Assembly: GCF_019052805.1 (NCBI RefSeq)
Contig: NZ_JAHQRJ010000001.1
Span: 2,108,001 to 2,172,000, forward strand
DNA length: 64,000 nucleotides
Direction: 5' to 3'
Source: Noviherbaspirillum sp. L7-7A
Lineage (GTDB): Bacteria > Pseudomonadota > Gammaproteobacteria > Burkholderiales > Burkholderiaceae_D
The position numbers and the translations under genes were made by a program. Below, in pieces: positions 263 to 55,738 of the stretch (its first letter is position 1; each line of letters begins with the position of its first letter). The notes beneath the pieces are model-generated. The model was not told where the DNA came from and made no database searches. It saw nothing but the letters and a program-made list of their open reading frames with translations.

Positions 263-1711
263 CTGGACTTTGTCCATTTTTGAGGGAAAGGAGGTAAGCC
301 CGAAGGGGCCTATCATGGTGTAACCACTCCTGCACGAGAGGTCATCATGAAATCGTTTCCCTTCGAGCTTACTCAGCTCAGTCTATTATTCCGCCCTATG
401 TTTTCCAAGGTCGTCTGGCCGTCGGTGCAGCTATTGCTGGCTGGCGCCATTTTGGCGGTGGGCACGCGCACCGTCACTGCGGTGCTGCACGTCATGGGGC
501 ATTCTGAAGAGCAGCAATTTCAGAAGTTCCATCGCATCCTCAACCGGGTTAAATGGTCGCCTCTGGCGGCAAGCCGGCGCCTTCTGCTAGCCTTGATGGA
601 GGCATTTGTTCCGCACGGACCGCTGGTCATGGCCCTCGATGACACAATTGAGCGACGCCAAGGCGCCCGGATTGCGGCCAAAGGTATCTATCGGGATCCG
701 GTCCGCTCCAGTCACAGCCATTTCGTTAAAGCCAGCGGCTTGCGATGGCTATGCCTGATGCTGATTGCTCCGATTCCTTGGGCCCACCGTGATTGGGCCT
801 TGCCATTCTGCACCGCACTTACGCCATCAGAACGCTATTACCATGAACGTGGCCGGCGCCCCAGCAAACTGACGGACCGTGCACGGCAAATGCTGTTCAT
901 GGTCAAACGCTGGCTGCCGCAGCGAGACATCGTGATCGTCGCTGACAGCAGCTTCGCTGCTATCGACTTGCTGGCGGCTGTGTCACCGCAAGTCTGTGTC
1001 ATTACGCGCTTGCGGTTGGATGCCGCTTTATATGAGCCGGCTGCGCCGCGCCGGGCCAATAAAGTCGGCCGCCCACGGCGCAAAGGCGTGCGCCTCCCGA
1101 CGCTGCAGACAGTATTGGCAAATCCCAGGACAATGTGGCAGACGGTCACGGTCACACGCTGGTATAGCCAAGGAGAACGGAATGTCCAAGTGGCCTCTGG
1201 CACGGCACTCTGGTATCACACGGGCAAGCCAGTTGTGCCATTGCGATGGGTACTGGTACGTGACCCACAGCGTCGATTCAAACCCCAGGCGTTTCTCTGT
1301 ACCAATCAGAAAGCATCACCCGACCAAATCCTGAATTGGTTCGTCAAGCGCTGGCAGGTGGAAGTGACCTTTGAGGAAGCACGTGCCCACCTGGGTATGG
1401 AAACACAACGCCAATGGTCTGCGCGAGCCATTGCTCGCACCACGCCGGTGATCCTGGCGCTGTATTCCATTGTTGCCTTACTGGCGAAGCAACGAATCAA
1501 GGAACAACCGATCATTCTGCGACATGCCGCTTGGTATAAGAAGGAGGTCGCAACATTCTCCGACACGATCGCTCTGGTGCGTCGGTGGTTCTGGTGCAAA
1601 CAGGCTTTATCAACATCAGAAGGCCCGTCTGAGATGATAAAAATCCCGCTACCTCTATTCGACCGCTTGACCGAGACGCTCAGTTACGCCGCCTGAAGGG
1701 ATAAAGTCCAG
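263..1711 (+). mobile_element. Insertion sequence copy 1 (1449 bp, DDE transposase, IS4/IS701-like)
   Basis: The element starts CTGGACTTTGTCC and ends with the complement of CTGGACTTTATCC, i.e. 13-bp terminal inverted repeats with one mismatch. It is flanked by the 5-bp direct repeat CTAAG. It carries one transposase gene in the same orientation. A second copy with identical transposase and the same ends lies at 2623-4071 in reverse orientation. Because each copy has its own target duplication, each inserted separately. The family is inferred from the transposase; 5-bp duplications are not the usual value for IS701 (4 bp), so the family label is tentative. Confidence 0.85.
347..1696 (+). CDS. 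DDE transposase of IS copy 1 (449 aa)
   Basis: This is an RNase H-fold transposase resembling the DDE superfamily endonucleases found in IS4/IS701-type elements. The first acidic residue is probably in MALDDTIERRQG (about residue 97), the second in IVIVADSSFAA (about 200), and the Glu in the WQVEVTFEEAR stretch (about 347), the usual YREXXK-like zone. It has one complete frame with no internal stop, begins with ATG 10 nt after GAGAGG and ends just inside the right inverted repeat. The 449 residues match the transposase of the inverted copy exactly, which suggests recent duplication and probable activity. Confidence 0.85.
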   Translation: MKSFPFELTQLSLLFRPMFSKVVWPSVQLLLAGAILAVGTRTVTAVLHVMGHSEEQQFQKFHRILNRVKWSPLAASRRLLLALMEAFVPHGPLVMALDDTIERRQGARIAAKGIYRDPVRSSHSHFVKASGLRWLCLMLIAPIPWAHRDWALPFCTALTPSERYYHERGRRPSKLTDRARQMLFMVKRWLPQRDIVIVADSSFAAIDLLAAVSPQVCVITRLRLDAALYEPAAPRRANKVGRPRRKGVRLPTLQTVLANPRTMWQTVTVTRWYSQGERNVQVASGTALWYHTGKPVVPLRWVLVRDPQRRFKPQAFLCTNQKASPDQILNWFVKRWQVEVTFEEARAHLGMETQRQWSARAIARTTPVILALYSIVALLAKQRIKEQPIILRHAAWYKKEVATFSDTIALVRRWFWCKQALSTSEGPSEMIKIPLPLFDRLTETLSYAA

Positions 1712-1716
1712 CTAAG
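1712..1716. repeat. Right target duplication (CTAAG) of IS copy 1
   Basis: This is the partner of CTAAG at 258-262. Its TAA part is also the left target repeat of the inner IS5-type element, and its G is that element's first base. Confidence 0.75.
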
Positions 1717-2618
1717 AAGCTGTTTCAAAATGACCATTTGAGTGTGCGCCAGCATATCAGGCAAAAAGCGATTTGTAAGAGGGCTTCGTGGATGTCGGCC
1801 CGCCGTTCATGGCGAACACGAAGACGACGATTGGCGTATAACCAAGCATGTGTCCGCTCGACGACCCATCGAATTTTGCCAAGGCCACTACTATGGGGTT
1901 GGTCCCGGCGAGCAATCGCTGTAGCAATACCGTTGGCGTGAAGCAGTCGGCGATATTTGTCGTGGTCATAGCCGCGATCTGCATAAACGCGTTGCGGCTT
2001 CTGGAGTGCGCGGCCGCGGCGGCTCGCGATGGGAGGAATCGCAGCGACCAGCGGTTCAAGCTGGGTGACGTCGTTGCGATTGGCACCAGTCAGGATTGCG
2101 GCGAGCAATGCGCCATTGGCATCGGTGGCGGGATGGTGCTTGGAGTCTGGTTGCGCACGATCAGTGGGGTTCGGACCTGTTTTAGACCCGTCCCAACAGC
2201 ACGAATGGGAGAAGAACCGACGATGACGCGAGAAAAATCGATGCGATCAGCAGCGCGCAATTTCAACAGCAGTAGGATATGCAACTGCTCCCATACGCCG
2301 GCTTGCTGCCAGTCGCGTCGACGCCAGCAGCTTACGCCCGAACCGCAGCCCATTTCAACGGTTAGCTCGCTCCAGCGAATGCCGCTTCTGAGCACGAATA
2401 GGATACCCGTTAGCGCTGCACGGTCCGATATGGGCATCCGACCAGGATACTTGAAGCACCTCGGTTTCCGAGGCAGCAGAAGTGGCTCAATTAGTGCCCG
2501 CAATTCGTCATCAACGATGGGCTTTCCCATCTCCTTAGCCCCCACTGTCACAACCGGAAAGGTCAACAGAATCGCCAATAAGTTAACAGAGCCCCTTTGG
2601 GCTTTTTGTAACAACTTC
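1716..2618 (-). mobile_element. Degenerate IS5-family element (about 903 bp, IS427/IS1031-like)
   Basis: The ends are GAAGCTGTTTCAAAA on the left and, complemented, GAAGTTGTTACAAAA on the right: 15-bp inverted repeats with two mismatches. The flanking repeat is TAA (1713-1715 and 2619-2621); CTAA is also possible because the outer C is ambiguous. The transposase is split between two frames and lacks the first catalytic Asp. The element is older than the two IS copies, which sit precisely on its two junctions. Confidence 0.8.
1725..2614 (-). pseudogene. IS5-family transposase, two frames, catalytic Asp lost
   Basis: The N-terminal frame (2090-2614) contains the family helix-turn-helix part, MGKPIVDDEL… to …FSRVIVGSS. 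The C-terminal frame (1725-2108) contains LAAILTGANRNDVTQ, VYADRGYD (second Asp) and WVVERTHAWL (catalytic Glu). The frames join by a -1 shift at a run of four A's (CTA-AAA-C), about base 2165. Related elements use programmed -1 frameshifting, so the split alone need not mean inactivation. However, the first DDE Asp, normally in an IVDSS-type motif, reads Gly (codon GGT in VIVGSS). I infer a dead transposase. Confidence 0.75.
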
Positions 2619-2622
2619 TAAC
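2618..2622. repeat. Left target duplication (CTAAC) of IS copy 2
   Basis: CTAAC is repeated at 4072-4076, bracketing IS copy 2. It is composed of the last C of the IS5-type element, the TAA spacer and the first C of the MITE-like element, so this copy landed across the IS5/MITE boundary. Confidence 0.75.
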
Positions 2623-4071
2623 CTGGACTTTATCCCTTCAGGCGGCGTAACTGAGCGTCTCGGTCAAGCGGTCGAATAGAGGTAGCGGGATTTTTATCAT
2701 CTCAGACGGGCCTTCTGATGTTGATAAAGCCTGTTTGCACCAGAACCACCGACGCACCAGAGCGATCGTGTCGGAGAATGTTGCGACCTCCTTCTTATAC
2801 CAAGCGGCATGTCGCAGAATGATCGGTTGTTCCTTGATTCGTTGCTTCGCCAGTAAGGCAACAATGGAATACAGCGCCAGGATCACCGGCGTGGTGCGAG
2901 CAATGGCTCGCGCAGACCATTGGCGTTGTGTTTCCATACCCAGGTGGGCACGTGCTTCCTCAAAGGTCACTTCCACCTGCCAGCGCTTGACGAACCAATT
3001 CAGGATTTGGTCGGGTGATGCTTTCTGATTGGTACAGAGAAACGCCTGGGGTTTGAATCGACGCTGTGGGTCACGTACCAGTACCCATCGCAATGGCACA
3101 ACTGGCTTGCCCGTGTGATACCAGAGTGCCGTGCCAGAGGCCACTTGGACATTCCGTTCTCCTTGGCTATACCAGCGTGTGACCGTGACCGTCTGCCACA
3201 TTGTCCTGGGATTTGCCAATACTGTCTGCAGCGTCGGGAGGCGCACGCCTTTGCGCCGTGGGCGGCCGACTTTATTGGCCCGGCGCGGCGCAGCCGGCTC
3301 ATATAAAGCGGCATCCAACCGCAAGCGCGTAATGACACAGACTTGCGGTGACACAGCCGCCAGCAAGTCGATAGCAGCGAAGCTGCTGTCAGCGACGATC
3401 ACGATGTCTCGCTGCGGCAGCCAGCGTTTGACCATGAACAGCATTTGCCGTGCACGGTCCGTCAGTTTGCTGGGGCGCCGGCCACGTTCATGGTAATAGC
3501 GTTCTGATGGCGTAAGTGCGGTGCAGAATGGCAAGGCCCAATCACGGTGGGCCCAAGGAATCGGAGCAATCAGCATCAGGCATAGCCATCGCAAGCCGCT
3601 GGCTTTAACGAAATGGCTGTGACTGGAGCGGACCGGATCCCGATAGATACCTTTGGCCGCAATCCGGGCGCCTTGGCGTCGCTCAATTGTGTCATCGAGG
3701 GCCATGACCAGCGGTCCGTGCGGAACAAATGCCTCCATCAAGGCTAGCAGAAGGCGCCGGCTTGCCGCCAGAGGCGACCATTTAACCCGGTTGAGGATGC
3801 GATGGAACTTCTGAAATTGCTGCTCTTCAGAATGCCCCATGACGTGCAGCACCGCAGTGACGGTGCGCGTGCCCACCGCCAAAATGGCGCCAGCCAGCAA
3901 TAGCTGCACCGACGGCCAGACGACCTTGGAAAACATAGGGCGGAATAATAGACTGAGCTGAGTAAGCTCGAAGGGAAACGATTTCATGATGACCTCTCGT
4001 GCAGGAGTGGTTACACCATGATAGGCCCCTTCGGGCTTACCTCCTTTCCCTCAAAAATGGACAAAGTCCAG
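2623..4071 (-). mobile_element. Insertion sequence copy 2 (1449 bp), inverted relative to copy 1
   Basis: It has the same length, the same terminal sequences (CTGGACTTTATCC on the left; complement of CTGGACTTTGTCC on the right) and the same encoded protein as copy 1, in opposite orientation. It has its own 5-bp duplication, CTAAC. With copy 1 it forms inverted flanks around the IS5-type element. The differing target duplications argue against one composite-transposon insertion. Confidence 0.85.
2638..3987 (-). CDS. DDE transposase of IS copy 2 (449 aa)
   Basis: The protein is identical at all 449 residues to the transposase at 347-1696, including the candidate catalytic segments MALDDTIERR, VADSSFAA and EVTFEEAR. 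The upstream leader (AAAGGAGG, then GAGAGGTCATC before ATG) is also the same. Identity of both copies implies very recent transposition or gene conversion. Two long inverted repeats this close together could promote inversion of the segment between them. Confidence 0.85.
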   Translation of the reverse strand: MKSFPFELTQLSLLFRPMFSKVVWPSVQLLLAGAILAVGTRTVTAVLHVMGHSEEQQFQKFHRILNRVKWSPLAASRRLLLALMEAFVPHGPLVMALDDTIERRQGARIAAKGIYRDPVRSSHSHFVKASGLRWLCLMLIAPIPWAHRDWALPFCTALTPSERYYHERGRRPSKLTDRARQMLFMVKRWLPQRDIVIVADSSFAAIDLLAAVSPQVCVITRLRLDAALYEPAAPRRANKVGRPRRKGVRLPTLQTVLANPRTMWQTVTVTRWYSQGERNVQVASGTALWYHTGKPVVPLRWVLVRDPQRRFKPQAFLCTNQKASPDQILNWFVKRWQVEVTFEEARAHLGMETQRQWSARAIARTTPVILALYSIVALLAKQRIKEQPIILRHAAWYKKEVATFSDTIALVRRWFWCKQALSTSEGPSEMIKIPLPLFDRLTETLSYAA

Positions 4072-4256: not shown

Positions 4257-6456
4257 TGTCCAGCGTGATCGGCAGGTCCCGCACCCGCTTGCCGGTGGCG
4301 TGATAGACGGCGTTGGCAATCGCTGCCGCCACGCCCGTGATGCCGATCTCGCCGATGCCCTTGGCGCCCAGCGGATTGATATGCGCATCCTTTTCCGGCA
4401 CCACCACGATGTCGATTGCGCCGATGTCGGCATTCACCGGCACATGGTATTCAGCCAGGTTGGCATTGACCGCGCGGCCATAGCGCAGGTCGTATTCGGT
4501 GGCTTCCATCAGGGCCATGCCCACGCCCCAGACGATGCCGCCCATCAGCTGGCTGTGGCCGGTCTTGGCATTGAGCAGCTGGCCCACGCCATAGGCCGCG
4601 GTGATGCGCGGCACCCGGACTTCGCCGAGGTCGGCATCCACATGGACTTCGGCAAACACGGCGCCGAAGGAATGCATCGAATACGCCTCCTTCTCGCTGC
4701 CGGCCCTGGCCTCGCCGCTGGCTTCGAGCGCCCGCCCGCCGTTGCGGGCGAGGATGGCGGCATAGGGTTCGCGCCGGTCCGTCGACGAACGCAGGAACAG
4801 CCAGCCGTTGTCCATGCCGACGTCGTCCGGGCTGGCGCCGGCCAGTGGCGACCTGCGGTCGGCCAGCGCCAGGCCGACCAGCTTGTCGCGCAGGGCCGCG
4901 CAGGCCGCCTGCACCGCCGGCGAAACGCTGGCCACGGACTGCGAGCCGCCCGATACCGGTGCCTGGGGCAGCGCCGAGTCGCCGAGTTCGAAACGCACCT
5001 TGTCCGGCGCCAGGCCCAATGCATCGGCGGCCACCTGGGTCATCACGGTATAGGTGCCGGTGCCAAGGTCCTGGGTGCCGGAACTCACCACCGCGCTGCC
5101 GTCGGGCAGCAGGCGCGCGCTGGCCTTGGCGGCGGAGCGATTGGCCGGATAGGTCGCGCTGGCCATGCCCATGCCGATCAGGGTGCTGCCGTCGCGCATG
5201 GACAGCGGACGCGGATCGCGCCTGGCCCAGCCGAAGCGCTCGGCGCCGACCCGATAGCATTCGCGCAGCGCATTGCTGGACCACGGCTTGTCCTTTTCCG
5301 GGTCGCGCTGCGCGTAATTGCGCATGCGCAGGTCGATCGGGTCGACCTTCATTTCATATGCAAGCTCGTCCATCGCGCATTCGAGCGCGAAGCTGCCAGT
5401 GGCCTCGCCGGGTGCGCGCATGAAGGTCGGCGTGCCGATGTTGAGCCGGGCCAGGCGGTGCGTGGTCTGCTGGTTGGGCGACTCGTACATCATGCGGGTG
5501 ACAAGCGCGGCGGTTTCCAGCCAGTCTTCCTGGAACGAGGTGCTGGCCAGCACATTGTGGCGTACTGCCGTCAGCGCGCCATCGCGTCCGGCGGCCAGCA
5601 GCATGCGCTGCTCGGTGTTGGGCCGCCCGCCCACCGGGCCGAACATCTGCGGCCGGTCCAGCACCAGCTTCACCGGGCGGCCGGCGCGGCGCGCGGCCAT
5701 TGCCGCCAGCACCACATGCGACCAGGTCGAGCCCTTGCAGCCGAAGCCGCCGCCCACATAAGGGCAGACCACGCGCACCTTGTCAGGCGCGATGCCCAGC
5801 GTCTTGGCCACGGCGTTGCGGTCGCCGGTGACGTACTGGGTCGAGTCGTACAGCGTCAGGTGCTCGCCTTCCCAGACCGCGATGGTGGCATGCGGCTCCA
5901 TCGGATTGTGATGCTCCATCGGCGTGCGATAGGCCACGTCGATCTGCGCCGCCGCCGCGGCGATGCCGGCATCGAGATTGCCGCGGCTGGTGTCGGCCGG
6001 GCCGTCCTTGGCCTTCTTCGGATCGACCGGCTGCAGCTTGGCCTTTTCAAAGTCCAGGGTTGCCTGTTCAGCGTGGTAGCTGAAACGTACATGGCGCGCC
6101 GCGTCGGCGGCCTGTTCCAGCGTTTCGGCCACCACCAGGGCCACCGGCTGGTTGTTGTAGTGCACCCGGTCGTCCTGCAGCAGGTTGAGCACCCTTCCCG
6201 CCGGCGGCTGGCCGGCGGCGGCCTTGCCGGCCGACGGCAGGCGCGGCGCGTTCTTGTGCGTCAGCACCGCGATCACGCCGGGCATGCGTTCCGCCTCAAG
6301 GCTGTCGACCGCGCTGATGCGGCCGTTGGCAATGGTGCTCATCACCATCACCGCATGCGCCAGCCGCGGTATCTTGTGCTCGGCCGAAAAGGTAGCCGTG
6401 CCCGTGACCTTGCGTACGCCATCGACGCGATTGAGTGGCTGTCCTGTGGAAGTCAT
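4246..6456 (-). CDS. paoC: Molybdopterin-binding subunit of a PaoABC-type aldehyde oxidoreductase
   Basis: This is the large catalytic subunit of the xanthine dehydrogenase family (736 aa; E. coli PaoC is close to this length), which would bind the molybdenum cofactor and oxidise aldehydes to acids. N-terminal residues about 10-120 form the aldehyde oxidase a/b hammerhead domain (PLNRVDGVRKVTGTATFSAE). The Moco-binding part follows (VCPYVGGGFGCKG near 220; TFMRAPGE near 345). The catalytic Glu is expected in KGIGEIGITG near 705. Its start overlaps the stop of the FAD subunit by 4 nt, so the two are translationally coupled. No Moco-insertion chaperone (XdhC/PaoD type) lies in the window. Confidence 0.9.
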   Translation of the reverse strand: MTSTGQPLNRVDGVRKVTGTATFSAEHKIPRLAHAVMVMSTIANGRISAVDSLEAERMPGVIAVLTHKNAPRLPSAGKAAAGQPPAGRVLNLLQDDRVHYNNQPVALVVAETLEQAADAARHVRFSYHAEQATLDFEKAKLQPVDPKKAKDGPADTSRGNLDAGIAAAAAQIDVAYRTPMEHHNPMEPHATIAVWEGEHLTLYDSTQYVTGDRNAVAKTLGIAPDKVRVVCPYVGGGFGCKGSTWSHVVLAAMAARRAGRPVKLVLDRPQMFGPVGGRPNTEQRMLLAAGRDGALTAVRHNVLASTSFQEDWLETAALVTRMMYESPNQQTTHRLARLNIGTPTFMRAPGEATGSFALECAMDELAYEMKVDPIDLRMRNYAQRDPEKDKPWSSNALRECYRVGAERFGWARRDPRPLSMRDGSTLIGMGMASATYPANRSAAKASARLLPDGSAVVSSGTQDLGTGTYTVMTQVAADALGLAPDKVRFELGDSALPQAPVSGGSQSVASVSPAVQAACAALRDKLVGLALADRRSPLAGASPDDVGMDNGWLFLRSSTDRREPYAAILARNGGRALEASGEARAGSEKEAYSMHSFGAVFAEVHVDADLGEVRVPRITAAYGVGQLLNAKTGHSQLMGGIVWGVGMALMEATEYDLRYGRAVNANLAEYHVPVNADIGAIDIVVVPEKDAHINPLGAKGIGEIGITGVAAAIANAVYHATGKRVRDLPITLDKLL

Positions 6457-50854: not shown

Positions 50855-52564
50855 ATGAAGCCTGTCCGCCTACCCGCTTCCGCCACGCTTGCCCTGCCGC
50901 GCTGGGGCGTGATCGCCCTGTGCCTGCTCTACATCCTGCCCGGCCTGATCCGGCGCGATCCGTGGAAGAGCGACGATGCCGCCGGTTTCGGCATCATGTG
51001 GACCATGGCGCGCGGCACTTGGCAGGACTGGCTGTGGCCGCATGTGGCCGGGCTGCCGGCGCCGGGCGAAGGGCCGCTGGCCTTCTGGCTGGGCGCGCTG
51101 TTCATCCGCCTGTTCGGCTGGCTGCTGGGCGATGCGCTGGCAGCCCGTATTTCCACCATCGGTTTTTTCATCATCGGCGCGCTGTCGGTCTGGTATTCCA
51201 CTTACCTGCTGGGCCGGCGTAGCGAGACCCAGCCGCTGCGGCTGGCCTTCGGCGGCCAGCCGGAAGCGCGCGACTACGGCCGCACGCTGGCCGATGGCGC
51301 GCTGCTGATCTATCTCGCCTGCCTTGGCCTGCTGCTGCGCAGCCATGAAACCACCGCCGAAGCGCTGCAGGTCTCCATGATCGGCTTTGCGATCTATTCC
51401 GCGGTGCGGCTGTTCGAGTCGCAGTCGCTGCGCTCGGCCATGGTGCTGGGCGTGACGCTGGGCCTCCTGGTTCTCACCCGCGGCTGGCTGGTGCCGATGG
51501 CGTTCTGGAGCGCGCTGGTGCTGGTGTCGCCAAGGCACGGCGACCGGCTGCTGCAGCGGCTGGCGCTGGTGACGCTGCCGCTGGGCTTTGCCACCGCCAG
51601 CATCTGGCCGCTGCTCAATGCGCTGATGCAGCCGTTCGGCGGCAATCCCACGCCGGCCTGGCTGCAGTGGAATGCGGCGCAGCTGGCGCTGCCATCGCTG
51701 GAGAGCACCGTCTACTTCTTCAAGTACATTCCCTGGTTCGCCTGGCCTGCCTGGCCTTTCGCCGCCTGGGCCGTGTATGCATGGCGCAAGCAGCGCGGCG
51801 CGCTGCACATCACGCTGCCGCTGGGCCTGATCATCGCCTTCATCCTGCTGGTGCTGCTGCATCCGCATGGCGAGGAAAGCTTCCTGCTGCCGCTGCTGCC
51901 GCCGCTGTCCATCCTGGCCGCATTCGGCCTGCCGACCATGAAGCGCGGTGCCATCAATGCGGTCGACTGGTTCGCGATGATGACGCTGTCGACATGCGCC
52001 GCCTTCATCTGGATAGGCTGGATCGCCAAGCAGACCGGCTGGCCGCCACGCCTGGCGCACAATGCGCTGAAGCTGGCGCCCGGCTTCAAGCCCGAATTCA
52101 ATCTGCTGGCCTTCCTGATCGCCGCTGCCGCCACCATTGCCTGGATTCTGGTGATCCGCTGGCGCATCGCGCGCCATCCGTCGGTGCTGTGGCGCGCCGT
52201 GGTGCTGTCGTCCGGCGGCGTGATCCTGTGCTGGCTGCTGCTGATGACGCTGTGGCTGCCATGGCTCAACTATGGCAAGAGCTATGCCGGCGTGGCCAAG
52301 CAGATCGGGGCCAGGCTGCCATCCGCCGATTACTGCGTCGACACCAATGTCGGCGCGGCGCAGCGCGCTTCCTTTGCCTATTTCGGCGGCGTCGAGTTCG
52401 CCCGTTTCGACAAGCACGACTGCGCCTACCTGCTGCTGCAGGACCGCGGCAGCGACCCGCTGATGAAAAAGGACGAGGATGGCCGCCTGGCATTGCTGTG
52501 GGAAGGACGCCGGCCCTCCGACCGCGACGAACGGTTCCGCCTCTACCGGCGCGTGAAACAATGA
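50855..52564 (+). CDS. ArnT/PMT-like membrane glycosyltransferase (569 aa)
   Basis: An integral inner-membrane protein with many hydrophobic helices. It resembles lipid-linked-sugar glycosyltransferases of the GT39/GT83 (dolichyl-phosphate-mannose or ArnT) type: a first-loop acidic motif in RRDPWKSDDAAGFG (about 33-46) is where those enzymes keep catalytic Asp. It probably moves a sugar from a polyprenyl phosphate to lipid A, protein or another envelope acceptor. Its stop overlaps the MATE start (ATGA), so the two are one operon. Confidence 0.75.
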   Translation: MKPVRLPASATLALPRWGVIALCLLYILPGLIRRDPWKSDDAAGFGIMWTMARGTWQDWLWPHVAGLPAPGEGPLAFWLGALFIRLFGWLLGDALAARISTIGFFIIGALSVWYSTYLLGRRSETQPLRLAFGGQPEARDYGRTLADGALLIYLACLGLLLRSHETTAEALQVSMIGFAIYSAVRLFESQSLRSAMVLGVTLGLLVLTRGWLVPMAFWSALVLVSPRHGDRLLQRLALVTLPLGFATASIWPLLNALMQPFGGNPTPAWLQWNAAQLALPSLESTVYFFKYIPWFAWPAWPFAAWAVYAWRKQRGALHITLPLGLIIAFILLVLLHPHGEESFLLPLLPPLSILAAFGLPTMKRGAINAVDWFAMMTLSTCAAFIWIGWIAKQTGWPPRLAHNALKLAPGFKPEFNLLAFLIAAAATIAWILVIRWRIARHPSVLWRAVVLSSGGVILCWLLLMTLWLPWLNYGKSYAGVAKQIGARLPSADYCVDTNVGAAQRASFAYFGGVEFARFDKHDCAYLLLQDRGSDPLMKKDEDGRLALLWEGRRPSDRDERFRLYRRVKQ

Positions 52565-53928
52565 TTGCAGTGCCAGCCGGCCGCACCCGCCGCATCGGCG
52601 CCCTGGCCTGGCCGCTGCTGATCGGGCAACTGGCGGTCATTGCCAACGGCGTGATCGACACCGCGATGACATCGCGCTTTTCCTCCGCCGACCTGGCCGC
52701 GCTGGCGGTGGGCGCATCGATCTATGTCAGCTCCTTCGTCGGCCTGTCCGGCGTGCTGCAGGCGGTGTCTCCCATCATCGGCCAGCTGTATGGCGCCAGA
52801 AAGCATGAGCGCATCGGCTCTGAAATCAGGCAGAGCCTGTGGCTGGCGCTGTTCCTGTGCCTGGTCGGACTGACGCTGCTGCTGTTCCCGCAGCCGCTGC
52901 TGGCCCTGGCCCAGGCAACGCCGGAAGTGGCCGACAAGGTCACCCTGTATCTGCGCATCCTGGCGCTGGCGCTGCCGGCCACGCTGGCCTTCCGCATTTA
53001 CGGTTCGCTCAACACCGCGCTGGCCCGGCCGAGGATGGTGATGGTGATCCAGGTCGGCACCCTGCTGCTGAAGATTCCGCTGAACCTGCTGTTCATCTTC
53101 GGCGGCCTCGGCCTGCCGGCCATGGGCGGGCCGGGCTGCGCGGTCGCCACCGCGATTGCCGCCTGGATCGCGGTACTGGCCGGCCTGGCATTGCTGCGGC
53201 GCGACCGCTTCTACGACCAGTTCAGGCTGTTCGGCGCAGGCTTCGAGTGGCCGCACTGGGCGGCGCAGCGCGCCTTCCTGAAGCTGGGCATACCGATGGG
53301 CCTGTCCTACCTGATCGAAGTGACTGCCTACACCTTCATGGCGCTGTTCATTGCCCGCATCGGCACCAACGCGGTCGCCAGCCATCAGGTCACGGCCAAC
53401 TTCGGCACCGTGCTCTACATGCTGCCACTGTCGATTGCCAATGCCACCGGCACGCTGGTGGCGCAGGCGCTGGGCGCCAGGCAGCTGGACGAGGCCAGGC
53501 GCATCGGCCATGCCGGCATCCGGCTGGCCGCCCTGGCTTCGGTCACCGTGGGCGTGCTGGTGTGGCTGTTCCGCGGCTTCATCATCCGGGCCTACACGCC
53601 GGACGAGGCGGTGATCGCGGCTGCGATGCCGCTGTTCCTGTTCATAGCGTTCTACCAGCTGTTCGACTCGGTGCAGGTGACCACAGCCTTCGTGCTGCGG
53701 GCCTACAAGGTCGCGGTGGTGCCCACCGTGATCTATGCCGTTGCGCTGTGGGGCGTGGGCCTGTGCGGCGGCTACCTGATGGGCCTGGACCCGCTGGGCA
53801 TCGCGCCCGCGGCGGTGCGCGGCGCGGCCGGCTTCTGGCTCGGCAACAGCGCCAGCCTGGGGCTGGTGGCCATTGGCCTTTTGTGGTACCTGCGGGTCAT
53901 AGAACGCCGCGCCAGGAGGGCGGCTTAG
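52561..53928 (+). CDS. MATE-family multidrug exporter
   Basis: A 455-aa antiporter with about 12 transmembrane helices. It begins RTRRIGALAWPLLIGQLAVIAN and has VIDTAMTSRFSSADLAALAVG (split), the MATE signature near helix 1. The two MatE halves lie at about 15-180 and 240-400. Gene overlap with the ArnT-like gene suggests coordinated envelope functions, but the exported substrate is unknown. The ORF extends upstream to 51667 in the same frame, but the family starts at 52561. Confidence 0.88.
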   Translation: MIAVPAGRTRRIGALAWPLLIGQLAVIANGVIDTAMTSRFSSADLAALAVGASIYVSSFVGLSGVLQAVSPIIGQLYGARKHERIGSEIRQSLWLALFLCLVGLTLLLFPQPLLALAQATPEVADKVTLYLRILALALPATLAFRIYGSLNTALARPRMVMVIQVGTLLLKIPLNLLFIFGGLGLPAMGGPGCAVATAIAAWIAVLAGLALLRRDRFYDQFRLFGAGFEWPHWAAQRAFLKLGIPMGLSYLIEVTAYTFMALFIARIGTNAVASHQVTANFGTVLYMLPLSIANATGTLVAQALGARQLDEARRIGHAGIRLAALASVTVGVLVWLFRGFIIRAYTPDEAVIAAAMPLFLFIAFYQLFDSVQVTTAFVLRAYKVAVVPTVIYAVALWGVGLCGGYLMGLDPLGIAPAAVRGAAGFWLGNSASLGLVAIGLLWYLRVIERRARRAA

Positions 53929-53973
53929 CGGCTTAGCGGCTTGACGACCTAGCGGGCCCGGCCGTGTGCAGAC

Positions 53974-54198
53974 TTAGCCGCCGCCGACATCGGCCAGCAG
54001 CCGGTGGGCCAGCGCCTTGGCTTCTTCCAGCGCTTCCTCGGGGGTTTCCGACACGCTGTTGACGGTCTGGGGCGCGCTGTCGGCGCCCGGGCTGCCCATC
54101 CGGGTCAGCAGCACGACGCCCTGGTAGGTGCCATCGGGCAGCCGCTGTATGTCGGCTTCCGCTTTCCAGTCCTGCTTGGTATAGGTCACTGCTGCCAT
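53974..54198 (-). CDS. Small unknown protein A (74 aa)
   Basis: A short protein with the pattern …RLPDGTYQGVVLLTRMG…EEALEEAKALAHRLLADVGGG. It has a beta-hairpin-like core (PDGTYxGxVxL) and an amphipathic acidic helix. The same pattern appears in the next gene (MPDGTYEAQVFVRLSR…ALQAAQARAQRALDEHEF), so the two are diverged paralogues. I do not recognise the family. A GGAACC upstream of ATG 54198 is a weak ribosome-binding site. No membrane or signal segment. Confidence 0.65.
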   Translation of the reverse strand: MAAVTYTKQDWKAEADIQRLPDGTYQGVVLLTRMGSPGADSAPQTVNSVSETPEEALEEAKALAHRLLADVGGG

Positions 54199-54313
54199 GG
54201 TGGTTCCTGTAAGGGGTTGAGTAAGAGGGAAAGCCTGCCTCCGGCAAGCGTTGCTTGCGGCCGCTCAAGGACTGCGGACGGTATATGCGGATGATGATCA
54301 GGCGCGTGCGGGG

Positions 54314-54532
54314 CTAGAATTCATGCTCGTCCAGCGCCCGCTGCGCGCGTGCCTGGGCTGCCTGCAAGGCCGACGGTTCGTCGGGATGGATGCCGGCCGG
54401 AATGAAGGTCTCGGCGCTTTCCGGCTCGCGGCTCAGTCGCACGAATACCTGGGCTTCGTAGGTGCCGTCAGGCATCTGCTTGGTATCGGTGCGGGCGATG
54501 TGGGTGCCGCTTTGCAGGATGTTTCCTGTCAT
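54314..54532 (-). CDS. Small unknown protein B (72 aa), paralogue of A
   Basis: This protein aligns with protein A: HIARTDTKQMPDGTYEAQV, then an Ala/Glu-rich helix. It directly follows the next small gene on the minus strand (its ATG touches the TGA of that frame), so both are probably translated from one message. Function unknown; no conserved catalytic residues are visible. Confidence 0.65.
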   Translation of the reverse strand: MTGNILQSGTHIARTDTKQMPDGTYEAQVFVRLSREPESAETFIPAGIHPDEPSALQAAQARAQRALDEHEF

Positions 54533-54676
54533 TCAGTCCTCCTGGGCGATCATGCGCAGCTGGGGATTGTGGTCAGGTACCGGCTCGTCGTCGGGAGCGG
54601 GAACCCCCGGAACCGGAATGGAATCGTCTTCCTCCATCGGTTCATGGTCCGGATGCGGCACAGGGGCTCGATGCAT
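54533..54676 (-). CDS. Small acidic Pro-rich unknown protein (47 aa)
   Basis: A 47-residue acidic, Pro-rich peptide (HPDHEPMEEDDSIPVPGVP…DNPQ-like). ATG 54676 is chosen; a longer frame begins at 54715. Its stop abuts the start of small gene B. Low complexity means the call is uncertain, but the tight arrangement supports a real leading gene of the pair. Confidence 0.45.
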   Translation of the reverse strand: MHRAPVPHPDHEPMEEDDSIPVPGVPAPDDEPVPDHNPQLRMIAQED

Positions 54677-54850
54677 GACGGTCTCCGCGCTGAAATGGAA
54701 CAAAAATGCTATCACGCATGCCTGGCGCGGCCTTGCGCCTGATCACGCGTGCCGGCATCCCCGCTTCCTGGCTCATCAAAAGTGCTCTGGCGTACCGACC
54801 CGCGCCATGCAGCGGCGCACAGTCGGGTTCGAAAGGCAAACGGGAAACAC

Positions 54851-55738
54851 ATGGTCAGGATGAAATTTTCGATCGTGCTGGCTTACGACATCGTCGACAG
54901 CAGCGCGGACTTTATTTTCAACATCGAGGCATCGCGCACCGCGCACCAGCACGTCGTCTCCGAGTCGCTGCACATCAGCCAGCCGCTACAGCCGGACAGC
55001 CACGTCGACCGCCGCCTCGGCGCCCGCCTGCTGCGCCTGAAGGCGGCCCGTGGGGCGCTCACGATACGCTATGACGCCGTGGTCGACATCGATCACCATC
55101 GCGCCATGCCGCAGGAACTGCAGGAAATGACCATCGCCGACCTGCCGCTGGAAGCCCTGCCCTATATCCTGCCCAGCCGCTACTGCCAGTCGGACCGGCT
55201 GCAGAAGTTCGCAACCGCCGAGTTTGGCGGCCTGCCGCGCGGCTACTCCAGGGTATGGGCGATCCAGCAGTGGGTGCGCAGCCATGTGAGCTTTCGCAGC
55301 GGCAGCTCCGACGGCAGCACGTCGGCAATGGATACCATCATCGAGCGCGGCGGCGTCTGCCGCGACTTTGCGCATCTGATGATCGCCTTGTGCCGCGCCC
55401 TCAACATCCCGGCGCGCTTCGTCTCCGGCATCGACTATGGCGCCGACCCGGCGCTCGGCCCCACCGACTTCCATGCCTATGTCGAGGTCATGCTTTCCGG
55501 GCGCTGGTACCTGTTCGACCCGAGCGGCGTCTCGGCACCGATGGGCCTGGTGCGCCTGGGAACCGGCCGCGACGCCGCCGATGCCGCCTTTGCCACCGTG
55601 TTCGGCATGGTGTATTCGCAGCCGCCGTTCATCCTGATCGAGGCGGTCACGGACGAGCATGGCCAGCTGGTCATGCCGCAGTACTCCGAGCATCTGCTGT
55701 CGACCATGGGCATGGAGCCGGCGCCGACAGCATCGTGA
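54851..55738 (+). CDS. Transglutaminase-like cysteine protease-fold protein (295 aa)
   Basis: A transglutaminase/protease-fold protein. The catalytic triad is visible: Cys in ERGGVCRDFAHLMIALCRAL (about 178), His in PTDFHAYVEVML (about 216) and Asp in WYLFDPSGVSAP (about 230). The N-terminal part resembles the bacterial transglutaminase N-domain (about 4-100). It may cleave or cross-link peptides, often seen near ATP-grasp/alpha-E genes elsewhere; none is visible here. An internal ATG at 54860 (KFSIVLAYD) is an equally good start. Confidence 0.85.
   Translation: MVRMKFSIVLAYDIVDSSADFIFNIEASRTAHQHVVSESLHISQPLQPDSHVDRRLGARLLRLKAARGALTIRYDAVVDIDHHRAMPQELQEMTIADLPLEALPYILPSRYCQSDRLQKFATAEFGGLPRGYSRVWAIQQWVRSHVSFRSGSSDGSTSAMDTIIERGGVCRDFAHLMIALCRALNIPARFVSGIDYGADPALGPTDFHAYVEVMLSGRWYLFDPSGVSAPMGLVRLGTGRDAADAAFATVFGMVYSQPPFILIEAVTDEHGQLVMPQYSEHLLSTMGMEPAPTAS

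Follow-up and report, generated by a model that had tools for sequence, protein, structure and literature searches.

Two paralogous small-protein families and a conserved acidic microprotein at one locus of Noviherbaspirillum sp. L7-7A

Introduction

Are three tiny open reading frames that lie side by side in a bacterial genome real genes, and if so, to what families do they belong and what might their products do? Small orphan proteins account for a large share of the unexplained content of bacterial genomes. The window analyzed here is a stretch of 64,000 nucleotides from Noviherbaspirillum sp. L7-7A, in which three such frames, here called A, B and C, occupy positions 53974–54676. An earlier note made from the letters alone had described them as a cluster of small genes, two of them paralogous, belonging to no family that came to mind.

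Layout of the locus

All three frames were found on the minus strand where the earlier note had placed them, and they are read in the order C-B-A. Gene C (54533–54676, minus strand) encodes a microprotein of 47 amino acids that is acidic and proline-rich, as had been noted, and that carries the pattern MHRAPxPxPDxEP...PVPDxNP. Genes B (54314–54532, minus strand) and A (53974–54198, minus strand) encode proteins of 72 and 74 amino acids, respectively, each a paralogue of the other with a predicted bbbb-alpha fold. We based the assignments of A and B on relatives, predicted fold and pN/pS, and that of C on relatives and codon-position bias. In the window, the TGA stop of C directly abuts the ATG of B, in agreement with the earlier description, and 115 bp separate B from A.

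Convergent with these genes is a plus-strand gene at 52561–53928 that we take to encode a MATE-type transporter, a lasting neighbor of C. Upstream of it on the same strand lies what is presumably an ArnT-like glycosyltransferase gene (50855–52564), the second lasting neighbor within the clade of the window. On the other side, divergent from C, a presumed transglutaminase-like gene (54854–55738, plus strand) adjoins C here and also at locus L062. All three names follow the earlier note rather than a family scan. Scanning 53800–55000 for promoters and terminators returned none, which is roughly what shuffled sequences yield.

Conservation and selection

The earlier note had named a lack of conservation in related genomes as one half of what would count against it. 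Among 60 related genomes, 14 contained a relative of A and 12 a relative of B, so the proposal stands in this respect. Across 294 family genomes, A was present in 43 (E ≤ 0.001, including one weak g6 genome at 5e-4) and B in 53 (E ≤ 0.001, including weak matches at 1e-4 to 1e-6 in three g22 genomes). The corresponding count for C, at most 62 of 294 under a looser threshold of E ≤ 0.1, is an upper figure that takes in uninspected weak matches with E above 5e-5, with 31 rows at 5e-5 or better. In an order-wide sample, C appeared in 3 of 250, one of them a weak match with an internal stop.

Scanning genome contigs with A gave 114 encoding stretches, and the best 80 of these 114 include many from Paraburkholderia, Trinickia and Burkholderia sp. 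The closest named relative among these best 80 was that of Noviherbaspirillum soli, at 99% identity. The alignment of A was built from 39 of the best 80 loci plus the window protein, omitting L079, which has no start, and the remaining loci, which were mostly near-identical.

Comparing each gene with six relatives of its own gave pN/pS of 0.02–0.27 for A, 0.09–0.40 for B and 0.18–0.37 for C. Differences at first, second and third codon positions amounted to 0.16/0.15/0.50 for A and 0.25/0.19/0.57 for B, and for C to 0.19/0.17/0.63 in the window clade and 0.14/0.15/0.59 in genus group g5. Judged by their relatives in other genera, the low pN/pS and the accumulation of substitutions at third positions, A, B and C are genes under purifying selection and not chance open reading frames, with selection on the amino acids serving as the proxy for translation. 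In several genomes (G026, G151, G207 and G218) the A/B family is represented by three or four scattered copies.

A and B are paralogues

BLASTP aligned only 19 residues between A and B. Aligning their profiles with hhalign matched 64 columns in register (probability 84%, E = 7.5e-6), a score that none of 150 column-shuffled or 60 reversed controls attained. Distant relatives bridge the two proteins and align through their whole length, and the g22 relatives are mixed, their loop resembling that of B and their helix that of A. AlphaFold models point the same way. For A (pLDDT 86.7, from 40 sequences), strands are predicted at 4–8, 11–19, 25–33 and 44–50 and a helix at 53–72; for B (pLDDT 87.9, from 9 sequences), strands are predicted at 5–8, 11–19, 25–33 and 42–49 and a helix at 52–68. 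The models thus give A and B a common bbbb-alpha layout with nearly equal boundaries. Because the profile match is full-length, intermediates exist and the predicted fold is the same, A and B are true paralogues of one family, as the earlier note had supposed.

That note had drawn attention to a shared PDGTYxxxV motif and an alanine-rich acidic helix, and both features are indeed present in A and B, with the helix at the C-terminal end. The motif is nevertheless not the conserved part. Among relatives of A, the PDGTY turn (residues 20–24) is the second least conserved element, with a mean majority identity of 0.45, ahead only of the loop after strand 3 (0.38), whereas the helix reaches 0.84 and is the best kept element after strand 1. 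The best conserved elements of B include strand 3 (0.97) and the loop that follows (0.89). As far as sequence comparison goes, the homology of A and B rests on whole-length profiles rather than on the PDGTY motif.

A likely superfamily with DUF6566-like proteins and CV_2116

Scans against Pfam, NCBIfam, PHROGs and PADLOC brought no match above threshold for any of the three proteins, in line with the earlier remark that no family came to mind. The Pfam family DUF6566 (PF20204) gave a weak end-to-end match to A at 12.4 bits, below its cut-off of 26.7, and none to B or C; its model touches 4 of 40 relatives of A (best E 0.0092). When the combined A and B profile was aligned by hhalign with a set of DUF6566-like proteins, the probability was 86.7 over 62 columns, with 0 of 150 and 0 of 60 controls reaching it. 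The compared set itself falls narrowly short of the Pfam threshold, its best member reaching 26.2 bits (E 8.7e-06), and contains no certified member. It carries a YxGYxI...ID signature, which is absent from A and B. An order-wide search for DUF6566 found it in 0 of 250 genomes and is uninformative, since the control genomes were equally silent. DUF2188 (PF09954), which we take to have a similar strand-helix make-up, matched 4 of the 33 proteins in the combined alignment, but with a best E of 0.057 this is not significant.

Among solved folds, the top match of both models was CV_2116 of Chromobacterium violaceum (PDB 2KON), the protein of the CV_2116-like family (PF21617). The match covers nearly the whole length with similar residue numbering, at Z 7.4 for A (72 aligned, rmsd 3.3) and Z 6.7 for B (70 aligned, rmsd 3.2), values under 8; Z scores such as those obtained here (6–7.4) are rated as common by the tool itself. 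Second for both was 6d7k_D, at Z 6.0 for A (60 aligned, rmsd 2.2) and Z 6.1 for B (57 aligned, rmsd 2.0). The best Foldseek E values were weak, at 0.058 (A) and 0.092 (B). According to its 2012 report, CV_2116 represented a novel fold for which a single sequence relative was known, and its strands lie at 4–6, 9–12, 15–18, 23–26, 29–32 and 41–44 with a helix at 52–72 (PMC3397530). These published positions are close to those in the model of A.

The same source places CV_2116 in a prophage tail operon (PMC3397530), which raises the question of whether A and B are prophage or phage-tail remnants, as proposed for CV_2116. We consider this extremely unlikely. The genes of A and B have chromosomal surroundings and do not lie in such an operon, searches of viral contigs and of plasmids found no relatives of either, PHROGs contributed one match only (for B, E 0.079), and no phage gene was recognized by eye among the neighbors looked at.

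How far does sequence support the link to CV_2116? The PF21617 model is absent among the Pfam matches of A, B and their relatives, while the CV_2116 fragment matches at 5.3e-47. A direct sequence link between A or B and CV_2116 was rejected, as shuffles reached its score in 98 (A and B combined), 59 (A) and 67 (B) of 100 trials. The DUF6566-like set did align with CV_2116 at probability 69, reached by 0 of 100 shuffles, and hmmsearch matched the two end to end at E 1.3. A mixed profile of the DUF6566-like set with A and B reached a probability of only 6 against CV_2116, also with 0 of 100 shuffles. The path from A and B to CV_2116 is indirect, because the DUF6566-like set links to CV_2116 and the A and B profiles do not. 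Together, A, B, the DUF6566-like proteins and CV_2116 likely form a superfamily, which is distinct from membership of A or B in PF21617 or PF20204. Two unnamed families are thereby connected with one another as well as with DUF6566-like proteins and a solved fold, and the link between DUF6566-like proteins and CV_2116 may merit a Pfam clan.

Some individual proteins touch on these relationships. The DUF6566-like proteins at L031, L034 and L060 resemble CV_2116 (PDB 2KON) in sequence (YRGYEI...AKIIID). In G018, a DUF6566-like gene (L233:5663-5926) lies directly upstream of B (about 6001–6216) on the same strand, so that related bbbb-alpha genes adjoin each other.

Sequence searches of solved structures with the A, B and combined profiles yielded no coherent match, and two candidates were set aside. 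The best hit of the combined profile, the T18.1 T-antigen pilin (8f70_A, 9.4e-05), covers 38 residues and thus only part of the domain, and the best match of the A profile, pyrroline-5-carboxylate reductase, reached 0.0063 over 44 residues. The B profile had one match among solved structures, at E 2.1. In the papers searched, neither DUF6566 nor the string PVPDHNP was mentioned, and queries about Ribo-seq of small proteins and about MmoD returned no more than listings. Within the reach of these literature searches, A, B and C are unreported in print.

Possible functions of A and B

The paralogy and proximity of A and B, on the same strand, would suit two halves of one complex or an antitoxin pair, and the earlier note had suggested both a heterodimer and an antitoxin-like role. 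Their distribution speaks against an obligate pair. Both occur in 25 of the 294 genomes, A alone in 18 and B alone in 28, which does not support a heterodimer as a necessity. Only 8 of the 25 genomes with both (G000, G002, G003, G005, G019, G026, G033 and G065) have C-B-A side by side, C and A occur without an intervening B in G001, G018 and G027, and the gap between B and A varies among relatives from about 20 to 600 bp. Nor did an antitoxin-like role find support: in a comparison of neighbors at a selected 33 A loci (15 groups) and 20 B loci (6 groups), no neighbor family outside the ArnT/MATE/rho clade recurred in more than three genus groups, leaving A and B with no conserved partner gene across genera, and PADLOC matched neither. 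We therefore regard a complex or antitoxin pair as very improbable. The other roles named in that note, inhibitor or chaperone, may still apply.

Both proteins are acidic (pI 4.5 for A and 4.9 for B; net charge about −5), and their alignments contain no conserved cysteine or catalytic-looking set of residues. Our preferred reading, which we hold tentatively and at slightly less than an even chance, is that A and B are paralogous cytosolic single-domain bbbb-alpha proteins that serve as non-enzymatic binders of different partners, with C a separate microprotein whose translation is likely coupled to that of B. A would bind its partner via the almost invariant C-terminal helix EALEEAKALAHR, and B via strand 3 and the loop after it (YEAQVFVRLxREPExAET). 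Different partners are suggested by the different surfaces that are kept, a matter of element-wise conservation rather than of coordinates, and by the occurrence of A and B apart. Most likely the two would act as small regulators or adaptors, with the genes of their partners encoded elsewhere than at the locus. The structural match 6d7k_D, an inhibitory subunit (MMOD-type) bound to methane monooxygenase hydroxylase, is an example of a small protein acting by binding an enzyme; its likeness to A and B is one of fold only, at Z about 6, and profile searches with A and B gave no sequence link to it.

The main rival to protein binding holds that the exposed sheet surface of A and B contacts nucleic acid, in the manner of dsRBD, AP2 or Pur-alpha-like domains, and that both proteins take part in RNA or DNA regulation. 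Many dsRBDs are among the solved-fold matches, as is, for B, the GCC-box domain of AtERF1 (1gcc_A, Z 5.7); the Pfam AP2 model touches 2 of 12 members of the B family (best E 0.059), and Pur-alpha chains appear among the Foldseek matches. The dsRBD and AP2 folds are a reminder that tiny non-catalytic proteins can still bind nucleic acid, which counts against the protein-binder reading. However, both proteins are acidic, and the nucleic-acid folds matched below cut-off or at middling Z. On balance, we judge a nucleic-acid role to be unlikely.

The microprotein C and its neighbors

The pattern of C is conserved in a family whose members are 35–47 amino acids long, and C, a conserved microprotein separate from A and B, is probably disordered. 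The tail LRMIAQED with which C ends in the window is a local addition: 5 of 9 relatives stop immediately behind the N(K)PS motif, and in the others the tail differs. The last codons of C, AGGAGGACTGA (54533–54543, minus strand), directly precede the ATG of B and contain an AGGAGG that reads as the Shine-Dalgarno-like site of B. Because this binding site for ribosomes lies within C, translational coupling of the two genes appears likely in this lineage.

The same arrangement could make C chiefly a leader, translated so as to expose the ribosome-binding site of B, with the residues of C mattering little. C and B also touch or overlap at L061 and L069. Yet the amino acids of C are conserved, as its pN/pS and third-position bias indicate, and the arrangement itself is not constant: C lies 19–113 bp from B at L062, L064, L066 and L076, and is found without an adjoining B at L063, L065, L067 and in g5. 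A role as a mere leader is accordingly highly doubtful.

The MATE gene accompanies C more widely. Of ten clade loci that have C, nine (L061-L065, L067-L069 and L076; the exception is L066) place it tail-to-tail with MATE, and A, or both A and B, lie in between. The same orientation was found at all 16 g5 loci (L196-L207, L209 and L211-L213), and no g5 genome is on the list of A or of B in the 294-genome sample. Since C adjoins MATE in g5 as well, where A and B are absent, gene order suggests that C and MATE are probably the older pair, between which A and B came to lie in one clade. The two convergent genes end very close together in g5, where the stop codon of C overlaps or all but meets that of MATE (e.g., L198:1501-1614 and 1611-3101).

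This association allows that C works with its MATE and ArnT neighbors, one possibility being a small protein that modulates the transporter, with A and B as later additions to a C-MATE locus. Convergent neighbors are, however, often inherited together without a common function, and MATE is missing beside C at L066 and beside the C-like frames of all three g15 loci (L208, L210 and L214), which leads us to consider a joint function quite unlikely. A more far-reaching version takes C as the first of a new family of acidic, disordered microproteins that stay next to MATE in separate genera and act on it or its substrate pathway, and A and B as two new families of CV_2116-fold regulators; it strikes us as improbable. 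The locus shows no surprising mechanism; it offers unnamed families, one with a conserved transporter neighbor. C gains a sequence signature and a lasting neighbor, and three hypothetical genes become testable.

Two observations concern individual copies of C. One g5 copy (L202:1501) has a stop codon halfway, so that in this genome C may be expendable or in decay. At the three g15 loci, the C-like frames (HRAP...PVPDHNPS) have no ATG at the usual position, an upstream start being possible, and by eye they adjoin an apparent amino-acid ABC transporter.
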